Assembly (NCBI RefSeq): GCF_014205015.1 | Contig: NZ_JACHMO010000001.1 | Location: forward strand, 6,138,001 to 6,202,000 | Source: Saccharothrix ecbatanensis | GTDB lineage: Bacteria; Actinomycetota; Actinomycetes; Mycobacteriales; Pseudonocardiaceae | Reading direction: 5' to 3' | DNA: 64,000 bases | Part shown: in pieces, positions 38,051 through 39,108 of the stretch | Layout of the letters: the number at the start of each line of letters is the position of its first letter | Position numbering within the stretch: position 1 is the stretch's first letter | The notes under the pieces: generated by a model | Seen by the model: the letters and a program-made list of their open reading frames with translations, nothing else | The model's database searches: none | Told to the model about the DNA's origin: nothing | Translations under genes and position numbers: made by a program

Positions 38051-38067
38051 CCTCAAGTTTCTTGAGG
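38051..38067 (-). promoter_or_regulatory. Hairpin over the Ro60 ribosome-binding site
   Basis: CCTCAAG-(3 nt)-CTTGAGG forms a 7-bp stem directly before the start codon region and includes the GAGG that would pair with 16S rRNA. It may reduce or condition translation of the Ro60 protein. Confidence 0.5.
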
Positions 38068-38081
38068 GAGCGACTACAGCC

Positions 38082-38231
38082 TCACACGTGCCCGAGATCA
38101 AAGTCGGCGAAGGTACGGTTGGTGTCCTGGGCCGCTAGACGACACCGACCACCGGCCGGCGACGGGATTCGAACCCGCGTCACCCCTTTGGAAGAGGAAG
38201 TAACCCTCGCCTGCGCACCGGGCACGTGTGA
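38082..38231 (-). ncRNA. YrlA-like Y RNA with circularly permuted tRNA module
   Basis: No ORF. On the minus strand, 5' to 3', I can draw these elements. An outer 12-bp stem pairs 38231-38220 with 38093-38082 (TCACACGTGCCC). A 9-bp stem pairs 38211-38203 with 38114-38106 (GGCGAGGGT with ACCTTCGCC). A hairpin arm follows (GTTAC/GTGAC, about 38205-38180). Next is a T arm, GCGGG-TTCGAAT-CCCGT (38178-38162). Then a closed 8-bp acceptor-like stem, CGCCGGCC with GGTCGGTG, and a GGU loop (38161-38143). Last is TC plus a D arm, GTCT-AGCGGCCC-AGGAC (38140-38124). T arm, then acceptor, then D arm is a tRNA opened at the anticodon, as in Salmonella YrlA. It lies between nucS and the Ro60 gene, its expected partner. 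Confidence 0.82.
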
Positions 38232-38254
38232 AGTTGTGGGCTCCCGAGATCAAA
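38091..38254. repeat. 12-bp direct repeats flanking the Y RNA module
   Basis: CCCGAGATCAAA occurs at 38091-38102 and 38243-38254, just inside the 3' end of the outer stem and just outside its 5' end. In the RNA both read TTTGATCTCGGG. They could be protein-binding sequence, support alternative pairing, or mark a past insertion. Confidence 0.7.
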
Positions 38255-38270
38255 CTTGTCCGGCGGGGGA

Positions 38271-38280
38271 ATTCTTATCA
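38271..38280 (-). promoter_or_regulatory. Candidate -10 region of the Y RNA
   Basis: TGATAAGAAT is the only AT-rich hexamer-like element between the nucS stop and the Y RNA. It would start a transcript near 38262. No convincing -35 is visible. Confidence 0.4.
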
Positions 38281-38355
38281 GGAAGTATCCGCAGGACATC
38301 GCACCGGGAGTGCGTGACCAAGCCTAGTCCGTGCCGGTCCAGGATCAACTTGTTT

Positions 38356-39015
38356 TCAGAACAGCCGGAATTCGTCCGACTCGATACCGCGCAGCACGTC
38401 GTAGTCCAGCACGACGCAGCGGATGCCCCGGTCCTCGGCCAACGTGCGCGCCTGCGGCTTGATCTGCTGGGCCGCGAACACGCCCTTCACCGGCGCGAGC
38501 AGCGGATCACGGTTGAGCAGCTCCAGGTACCTGGTCAGCTGTTCCACGCCGTCGATCTCGCCCCGCCGCTTGATCTCCACCGCGACCGAACCACCCGACG
38601 CGTCCCGGCACATCAGGTCGACCGGGCCGATCGGGGTCGGGAACTCGCGGCGGACGAGGGTCCAGCCCTCGCCGAGCGTGGTGACGTGCTCGGCCAGCAG
38701 CTTCTGGAGGTCGGACTCCACGCCATCCTTGACCAGGCCGGGCTCGGGGCCGAGTTCGTGCTTGGAATCGTGCATCACCTCGGTCAGCGTGATGATCAGC
38801 TTCTCGCCCGCCTTGTTCTGCACCACCCACATGTCCGGTTCCTCGATCAGCCAGCACGGCGGGCTCATCCAGTTCAGCGGCTTGTACGCGCGGTCGTCGG
38901 AGTGGATCGACACCGAGCCGTCCGCCTTGATCAGCAGCAGCCGCTGCGCCATCGGCAGATGGGCGGTGAGACGTCCGACGTAGTCGACCTTGCAGCGAGC
39001 GATGACGAGGCGCAC
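38356..39015 (-). CDS. nucS: NucS/EndoMS mismatch endonuclease
   Basis: 219 residues from GTG 39015. The N-terminal DNA-binding domain starts [20 protein letters not shown]. The C-terminal PD-(D/E)xK nuclease has Asp in [10 protein letters not shown] and Glu-x-Lys in [17 protein letters not shown]. It ends with the family's clamp-interacting hydrophobic tail (ESDEFRLF). NucS cuts both strands at mismatches and replaces MutSL mismatch repair in many actinobacteria. TAGCCT 7 nt before the GTG fixes a leaderless start. It lies upstream of the Y RNA and Ro60 gene on the same strand. Confidence 0.96.
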
Positions 39016-39022
39016 GGCGGAC

Positions 39023-39028
39023 AGGCTA
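39023..39028 (-). promoter_or_regulatory. -10 box for leaderless nucS
   Basis: On the minus strand TAGCCT ends exactly 7 nt before GTG 39015. Confidence 0.5.
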
Positions 39029-39108
39029 CGGGGTGCGGGGCCTGTTCCACCGGCAGGTACCGTCGGCCGACGTGTCACCCGGTCGTCGTTGGCACAGGGA
39101 GAGTGATC

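Follow-up and report, generated by a model that had tools for sequence, protein, structure and literature searches.

On the minus strand of the window, by which we mean the whole stretch of 64,000 nucleotides of Saccharothrix ecbatanensis DNA that was analysed, positions 38231-38082 are, judged by their sequence, a Y RNA of the YrlA class which lies upstream of a Ro60 gene and contains a circularly permuted tRNA-like domain. Conserved pairing of this long RNA and of a short second Y RNA, a core pair between positions 15 and 48, the signature of an anticodon arm and a linkage to Ro60 were observed. The explanation that would account best for these observations, to which we assign a probability of roughly three in four, is a pair of Y RNAs bound by Ro60, of which the long one carries a four-armed effector module with the shape of a tRNA elbow.

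Table 1. Coordinates of the features at the Ro60 locus of the window and of four annotated phage tRNAs. The transcript ends of the long Y RNA are taken from its terminal stem.
Feature	Position	Strand	Basis
Ro60/TROVE protein, 535 aa	36436..38043	-	PF05731, E 2.5e-16 over 62 residues
Short hairpin CCUCAAG...CUUGAGG, after the Y RNAs and before the start codon of Ro60	38051..38068	-	sequence
Putative long Y RNA of the YrlA class, including the tRNA-like domain	38082..38231	-	sequence and covariation; 110.6 bits with model R1 in its own genome (R1 was trained on that genome)
Terminal stem, 3' strand CGGGCACGUGUGA	38082..38094	-	sequence
Second stem, 3' strand ACCUUCGCC	38106..38114	-	covariation
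U8-C9 and D arm GUCU-AGCGGCCCA-GGAC, tRNA-Glu type	38124..38142	-	2 of 4 pairs changed on both sides, 100% paired
Acceptor-like stem CGCCGGCC / GGUCGGUG with GGU loop	38143..38161	-	6 of 7 modelled pairs changed on both sides, 98.6% paired
T arm GCGGGUUCGAAUCCCGU, GCGGG-UUCGAAU-CCCGU	38162..38178	-	3 of 5 pairs changed on both sides, 100% paired
Variable loop UGAC of 4 nt, the length found in host tRNA-Glu; its C (38179) corresponds to position 48, Levitt partner of G15	38179..38182	-	sequence
Anticodon-arm-like hairpin UUCCU-CUUCCAA-AGGGG, 'anticodon' UCC at 38192-38190	38183..38199	-	three of five pairs and the 7-nt loop in the minimum-energy fold; helix 75% paired in the cells of the family alignment
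Second stem, 5' strand GGCGAGGGU, partner 38114-38106	38203..38211	-	6 of 9 pairs changed on both sides, 91.6% paired
Terminal stem, 5' strand UCACACGUGCCCG, partner 38094-38082	38219..38231	-	sequence
Putative short second Y RNA (YrlB-like)	38239..38313	-	alignment of 24 relatives; compensatory change in 5 of 14 predicted pairs
Promoter-like TTGATC-N16-TAGGCT preceding the short Y RNA	38321..38348	-	weak; by eye, most genus members have something similar
nucS (endonuclease NucS), upstream neighbour	38356..39060	-	PF01939 and PF21003
Phage 'tRNA-Arg(tct)' overlapping a Y RNA match, directly upstream of a Ro-like gene	L161:2204-2275		
Phage 'tRNA-Ser(gct)' overlapping a weak Y RNA match (43.2 bits), directly upstream of a Ro-like gene	L159:2274-2347		
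Phage 'tRNA-Thr' overlapping a Y RNA match, directly upstream of a Ro-like gene	L237:2295-2362		
Phage 'tRNA-Ser' overlapping a Y RNA match, directly upstream of a Ro-like gene	L238:2266-2340		

The gene order on the minus strand is nucS, short Y RNA, long Y RNA and Ro60, and the Ro60 of the window matched the solved TROVE relatives 9l5y and 9kop at E 1.6e-25. Between the Y RNAs and the start codon of Ro60 lies a short hairpin which, judged by eye, exhibits base changes on both sides in relatives and for which a role in translation control is possible. The host genome is one contig of 9.69 Mb with rtcB at 3.02 Mb and Ro60 at 6.17 Mb, so that no rtcB is adjacent (the distance is about 3.15 Mb) and the locus lacks the rtcB neighbour of an RNA repair operon. 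The first-pass annotation of this DNA was right both in naming nucS as the upstream neighbour and in stating that no rtcB lies nearby. As rtcB was present in 25 of 25 genomes of the genus, with or without Ro60, its co-occurrence is uninformative. In three members of the genus the RtcB match is split in two, with about 0.75-0.9 kb between the parts and a single long open reading frame covering both (G013:C1:7627458-7629494, G017:C35:53292-55328, G020:C1:4103087-4104940), which looks like an intein.

The short Y RNA has terminal and second stems like those of the long one, the motif GGNUACUUC and the 3' end GAUCUCGGG, and it contains no tRNA domain. The 12-base direct repeat TTTGATCTCGGG, which had been taken for a distinctive feature, indeed occurs twice, but the two copies are the 3' ends of the two Y RNAs. 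The interval 38082..38280, originally proposed for one RNA, contains the whole long Y RNA but also reaches into the separate second one. A scan of the window for consensus promoters and terminators found nothing.

Reading of the gene strand, together with the covariation in 33 relatives, bore out the proposed permuted order of T arm, acceptor and D arm. The acceptor-like stem CGCCGGCC-GGU-GGUCGGUG comprises the proposed 8 bp, two of them G-U, and is followed by U-C and the D arm; as it is closed by GGU, there is no free 3' end and no CCA. Below the tRNA-like part two stems exist as had been described, with details that differ from the perfect 9 and 12 bp stated: the terminal stem UCACACGUGCCCG/CGGGCACGUGUGA comprises 13 bp, and the second stem GGCGAGGGU/ACCUUCGCC, from which it is separated by an internal loop, has 9 bp with one G-U. 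By sequence alone, the T loop UUCGAAU and the D-loop bases are present as well.

For alignment A1, on which the evidence for this fold rests, the DNA upstream of Ro60 was read at 38 loci, and the 33 long RNAs whose T loop and D arm could be recognised were kept; the five loci outside A1 are L068-L071, with reduced RNAs of one genus lacking a D arm, and L056, where the RNA is located farther away. In A1 the 35 named pairs were formed in 93.4% of cells, and 19 of them exhibited changes on both sides. The covariation score was 0.338, compared to 0.110 ± 0.008 for shuffles, none of which reached it in 500 attempts, and to at most 0.069 for slid partners. Of the proposed stems, the T arm, the acceptor, the D arm and the second stem are thus supported by covariation among relatives. 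The C-C-G/C-G-G part of the terminal stem is invariant in 33 of 33 RNAs and is for this reason neutral as covariation evidence. Unguided RNAalifold recovered T arm, acceptor, D arm and both foot stems from the relatives; the anticodon arm was not recovered by it. The folding energy of the minus strand of 38082-38280 is -85 kcal/mol (z -2.64), with 3 of 200 shuffles being equally or more stable. The single-sequence minimum-energy fold of the window contains the two foot stems, the CUUCCAA hairpin (3 pairs) and a shifted T stem. As the acceptor stem and the D arm are both missing from it, the support for these two elements comes from comparison. An extra arm GUUAC/GUGAC (GTTAC/GTGAC in the DNA), which the first-pass annotation had also regarded as distinctive, was rejected: in the family alignment it is paired in 56.1%, which is not above shuffles, and exhibits zero double changes, so it is not conserved, and its place is occupied by the hairpin UUCCU-CUUCCAA-AGGGG.

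The Levitt pair of tRNA joins base 15 of the D loop to base 48, which precedes the T arm. In A1 this pair was formed in 32 of 33 RNAs (21 G-C, 11 A-U) and broken in one. It was also analysed in a larger set of 125 distinct RNAs, composed of the 33 of A1, 46 distinct-locus hits of at least 57 bits (out of 133 hits) and 46 single hits from 46 loci (88 hits). Repeats L153-L156 as well as L141 and L149, which represent the same sites as named loci, were left out of the second part. The third part drew on 70 of 71 named loci; four of its loci were widened by hand, and loci with a best hit below 47.9 bits, L197 (repeat of L145), L198 (near-repeat of L229), L180 and L200 were dropped, the last two of them unjustifiedly. 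Nearly all of the 125 RNAs are actinobacterial; four are from phages, and the named locus L223 is not actinobacterial. In the 120 callable RNAs of this set (five were not callable) the pair was G-C in 72 and A-U in 43, 115 in total, and broken in five. Placed on a tree built from 79 Ro60 proteins, base 15 changed at least 20 times. Among 13 independent comparisons on supported branches base 48 differed in the same way as base 15 in 11-12, in the opposite way in none, and did not differ in 1-2 (p 0.0005-0.001), in a test for which 75 rows were coded and four left uncoded, L047 and L214, both with a broken pair, being among these four. Six further phage regions outside model R1 provided 18 hits, in which the D arms were located by pattern, and 15-48 agreed in 13 of the 14 callable ones. 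Going by this pair, the core of the long Y RNA is tRNA-like.

An anticodon arm is the fourth element of the tRNA-like part. In the RNA of the window a CUNNNR heptamer stands at tRNA distance from position 48 and is closed by a stem of 5 pairs. The same heptamer was found in 84 of 125 RNAs at a distance of 10 (66 RNAs) or 9 (18 RNAs) before position 48, which corresponds to a 5-bp stem plus a variable loop of 5 or 4 nt; motif and spacing decided which RNAs were picked, and pairing was not used. Their closing pair 31-39 was formed in 74 of 84, 73 of them being Watson-Crick pairs of four types, whereas the shuffle maximum was 61. Since pairs 30-40 and 29-41 are nearly invariant and the two outer pairs are formed in about half of the RNAs, the covariation of the anticodon arm rests mainly on one pair. 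Within the loop, positions 32 and 33 are fixed by the selection and position 38 is A in 70 of 74. Position 37 was restricted to purines by the selection; of the 18 RNAs with G36, 13 have a G there, and of the 66 others 63 have an A. Seen from the other side, 13 of 16 RNAs with G37 have G36 and 39 of 41 with U36 have A37, which matches the habit of tRNAs. The 'anticodon' triplet occurs in 27 kinds among the 84 motif RNAs, and on the Ro60 tree (56 rows) at least 42 changes of the loop heptamer were counted.

The arm is not universal: 41 of 125 RNAs have no CUNNNR motif at the spacing of a tRNA, and in one family there are genomes with paralogs lacking such an arm. Other offsets of the motif that stand above the rest are 16 (27 of 125), a peak that probably derives from a conserved CUUCCA, and 7 (16 of 125). 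Hairpins of at least three pairs with a loop of 7 nt were counted in 91 of the 125 RNAs, as compared to 77 each for 4 and 10 nt; as the latter two are common too, loop length by itself is a weak indicator and the motif-and-spacing test was used instead. The loop heptamer matched a tRNA loop of the own genome in 43 of 74 cases, compared to 34.5 ± 2.0 when 34-36 and 37-38 were re-paired; for the 35 distinct heptamers the numbers were 14 and 11.2 (p 0.065). In M. wolinskyi, M. houstonense and M. canariasense the RNA has the hairpin with a 7-nt loop, here of three pairs. The Rfam YrlA model aligned the hairpin of the Gordonia polyisoprenivorans RNA (45.2 bits) as a 12-base insertion, and in L004 only 6 bases were inserted, half of the hairpin being absorbed into mismatched stem positions. 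According to the first-pass annotation the RNA is a tRNA opened at the anticodon loop. Such an opening would leave nothing between the foot and the variable loop, and the hairpin found there in 84 of 125 RNAs, with loop CUNNNR at anticodon-arm spacing, places the break between D stem and anticodon stem (26/27) instead.

The RNA of the window and that of its nearest relative, L003, have the D stem GUCU or GUCC and a 4-nt variable loop, whereas 31 of the 33 RNAs of A1 have GCUC; within the genus, 8 of 10 members carry the D stem GCUC/GAGC. Glu-like D stems (GACC, GUCU, GUCC, GACU) were found in 12 of the 84 motif RNAs, all of them at spacing 9, where the other RNAs comprise five with GCUC or GUUC and one in which the D stem was not called. 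At spacing 10, GCUC was present in 64 of 65 called D stems. The D arm of the window RNA is identical to that of host tRNA-Glu in 18 of 19 positions and its T arm to that of host tRNA-Glu(UUC) in 17 of 17; in L003 the loop, too, is identical, namely to that of tRNA-Glu(CUC). The T arm is, however, not diagnostic, as L008 and L009 share it with the window RNA and have other D arms. A Y RNA of a Xanthomonas phage contains a similar Glu-type D arm in the same design with the triplet CUC, and tRNA-Glu-like Y RNAs look like a recurrent subtype. The D arm of the window RNA may derive either from a tRNA gene or from another Y RNA of the Glu type. Capture of a whole tRNA found no general support as the origin of the module: for 8 of the 10 genus members the nearest tRNA differs between D arm, loop and T arm, or the loop is unmatched, the tRNAs of the window's genome having been used for all members. 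L004, for example, has a D arm nearest to Thr, a loop nearest to Ile and a T arm nearest to Asp; only L003 gives Glu for all three parts, and the window RNA gives Glu for two.

The RNA and Ro60 occur together. A protein search found Ro60 in 12 of 25 genomes of the genus, in 10 of them in full length. All 10 genomes with a full-length Ro60 contain the RNA at 110 bits or more, and none of the 15 others has a match at E <= 1e-8, with model R1 having been trained on these 10. At the level of the family Ro60 was matched in 42 of 200 genomes; 31 genomes contain an RNA hit of at least 60 bits and all of these are among the 42, of which 11 are without such a hit. Five of these 11 have a reduced RNA at 41-47 bits beside Ro60, and R1, being trained on tRNA-like RNAs, is biased toward hits of that kind. 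Matches of R1 under about 50 bits were present in nearly all genomes and were handled as background; they are probably tandem tRNA genes. Three RNAs, each with its own foot, are present in 7 of the 38 loci read upstream. Among the tandem arrangements are those of L059-L064, from one related genus with three Y RNAs upstream of Ro60; the first RNA of L059 has, by eye, T, acceptor and D-like arms and no anticodon arm. In L068-L071, from another genus, the reduced Y RNA has a T arm, a hairpin replacing the acceptor and no D arm. About 1.5 kb separate the Y RNA from Ro60 in G176:C1:3620723-3623820 (with L056 upstream), so that the RNA may act in trans there.

Phages carry related RNAs, and Y RNAs in phages are, as far as the accessible sections of the literature report, already described. 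Of 85 phage records with a Ro-like match 11 were examined. The four-armed design also occurs in phages of Xanthomonas, Caulobacter and Brevundimonas, and 6 of 27 phage hits, from phages of these three hosts and of Gordonia, have five-pair anticodon arms. In 4 of the 11 regions the anticodon or amino acid of an annotated 'tRNA' agrees with the Y RNA reading (three strong hits, with that of Alone3 being weak at 43.2 bits). The annotated tRNAs at L161, L159, L237 and L238 are probably Y RNAs, and caution seems advisable for 'tRNA' genes beside Ro-like genes in phages. Brevundimonas phage Kikimora has, downstream of its Ro-like gene, a match to the permuted tmRNA family RF04321 (L238:5841-6186, 57.7 bits, cut-off 47). 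In Streptomyces phage Kela an RNA ligase gene directly precedes the Ro-like gene (L163:1657-2409). The foot of a Gordonia Y RNA (L209:2247-2379) matches the nematode family RF01656 below its cut-off (27.5 vs 38 bits, E 5e-4), hinting at a Ro60-binding motif in common with animal Y/sbRNAs.

From the observations we infer transcription, binding to Ro60, a partner and a role of the loop along the following lines. Short and long Y RNA would most likely be co-transcribed with Ro60 and then trimmed. The two-stem foot and the flanking motifs of both RNAs most likely bind to the outside of the Ro60 ring, as YrlA and Rsr suggest. The effector module of the long RNA is expected to fold as a tRNA elbow composed of anticodon-arm hairpin, variable loop, T arm, closed acceptor stem and D arm, in which the chain would be cut between D stem and anticodon stem and continue into the Ro60 foot. 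As its acceptor is closed, the long RNA should be neither charged nor used in translation. Most likely it holds Ro60 to a protein that recognises tRNA elbows, PNPase being the known partner in Deinococcus. The anticodon arm may add a second tRNA contact that depends on the shape of the loop and not on the three anticodon bases; the conserved frame with its free triplet suggests either a partner sensing the loop shape or changing partners.

A different use of the same arm would be that of a decoy, with Ro60 as the holder of a bait for anticodon nucleases or other anticodon-loop enzymes and with a triplet that tracks the attackers. The variety of triplets and the many changes of the heptamer next to an almost constant A38 would fit, as would the location of 3 of the first five examined actinophage regions in large tRNA clusters and the RNA ligase adjoining the Ro-like gene of Kela; moreover, Hughes et al. 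(2020) put forward that YrlA might competitively inhibit an anticodon nuclease (available parts of PMC7790460). Yet neutral drift of an unused triplet accounts for the variability equally well, there is no link to rtcB in the genus, and, according to the same parts of PMC7790460, fragments of Salmonella YrlA were not detected, arguing that it is not cut there. We regard this use as unlikely. Slightly less credible still is an ordinary three-armed YrlA whose hairpin ahead of the T arm arose by chance or serves as a structural spacer, without anticodon meaning. The Rfam consensus and the paralogs without the arm, its omission by RNAalifold and the frequent 4-nt and 10-nt hairpins are in line with such a spacer, but a spacer would explain neither the spacing peak at 10 and 9 nor the covariation of the closing pair and the 36/37 habit; in addition, five-pair arms recur in phages, proteobacterial ones included, and the tRNA finders of phage annotators read an anticodon from these RNAs.

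Their position directly upstream of Ro60 on the same strand and the hairpin before the start codon might indicate that the RNAs serve mainly as an untranslated 5' leader regulating Ro60, for example through autoregulation by Ro60 binding. This appears quite improbable given the loci with three RNAs, each on its own foot, the distance between RNA and Ro60 in G176, and the conserved terminal stems, which suggest a closed stable RNA. A degenerate or real tRNA gene in normal order can practically be dismissed. The Rfam tRNA model does reach 28.1 bits on 38154-38214 (cut-off 29), but a D arm is missing from the normal-order reading, the actual one being placed 3' of the acceptor, and the permuted pairing covaries. 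A normal-order cloverleaf with a free acceptor end was not found, as ARAGORN reported no tRNA in the window and the acceptor is closed by GGU.

Beyond the proposed Ro60-bound pair with its elbow module, a wider idea can be formulated, which we consider doubtful. A widespread class of four-armed Y RNAs, in actinobacteria and in phages of several bacterial phyla, would mimic whole tRNAs with a U-turn loop and a hypervariable anticodon; one subtype would keep tRNA-Glu features (D arm, 4-nt variable loop and, in 9 of 12, the triplet CUC or UCC) in at least two actinobacterial families as well as in a Xanthomonas phage; and Ro60 would display exchangeable decoys adapted to enzymes that act on the anticodon loop, anticodon nucleases for instance. 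In any case, a constant frame with a changing triplet offers a concrete handle on the question why bacteria attach tRNA mimics to Ro60, and a form of Y RNA with an anticodon-like arm renders the nuclease-inhibitor idea testable.

Among the closest known systems is Salmonella YrlA, from the operon rsr-yrlBA-rtcBA (crystal structure 6CU1). As far as the accessible descriptions go, it shares with the RNA of the window the foot stem for Ro60/Rsr, the permuted module of D, T and acceptor parts and a YrlB partner, and the order of short and long RNA parallels the B-A order in the operon name yrlBA. Unlike Salmonella YrlA, the window RNA has an extra hairpin at the place of the anticodon arm and a tRNA-Glu-type D arm, and both RNAs are located upstream of Ro60 with no rtcB beside them. 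The Rfam family RF02553 (YrlA) has the same order of T arm, acceptor and D arm, but its consensus is without an anticodon arm. At curated cut-offs Rfam yielded no match in the window, and the suggested Rfam check failed to identify the RNA (14 bits with RF02553 vs a cut-off of 69). Eight of 10 genus loci align to this model at E 5e-8 to 1e-3, all below threshold with a best score of 49.2 bits, and no match was obtained in L002 and L003. The permutation of YrlA relative to tRNA has already been published, according to the consulted sections of PMC8394870, PMC11472068 and PMC7790460. No description of an anticodon arm in Y RNAs was found in the literature searched, which did not extend to the primary papers; permuted tRNA mimicry is known, and the four-armed form appears to be new within that same literature. 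The view that actinobacterial Y RNAs are little described did not hold, as the Yrl RNA of Mycobacterium smegmatis, a Y RNA bound by a Ro60 orthologue (Chen et al., 2014), is cited in the available text of PMC4726728; it resembles the RNA of the window in being actinobacterial and, as proposed here too, in having a Ro60 orthologue as partner. The accessible parts of PMC8394870 and PMC7790460 further describe the tRNA-like part of YrlA as a substrate of DusA and TruB, and a bacterial Y RNA of Deinococcus as the tether of Rsr to PNPase. This Rsr-Y RNA-PNPase complex (RYPER), as outlined there, serves as our working model for the role of a bacterial Y RNA, and by analogy the long RNA of the window may likewise contact PNPase.
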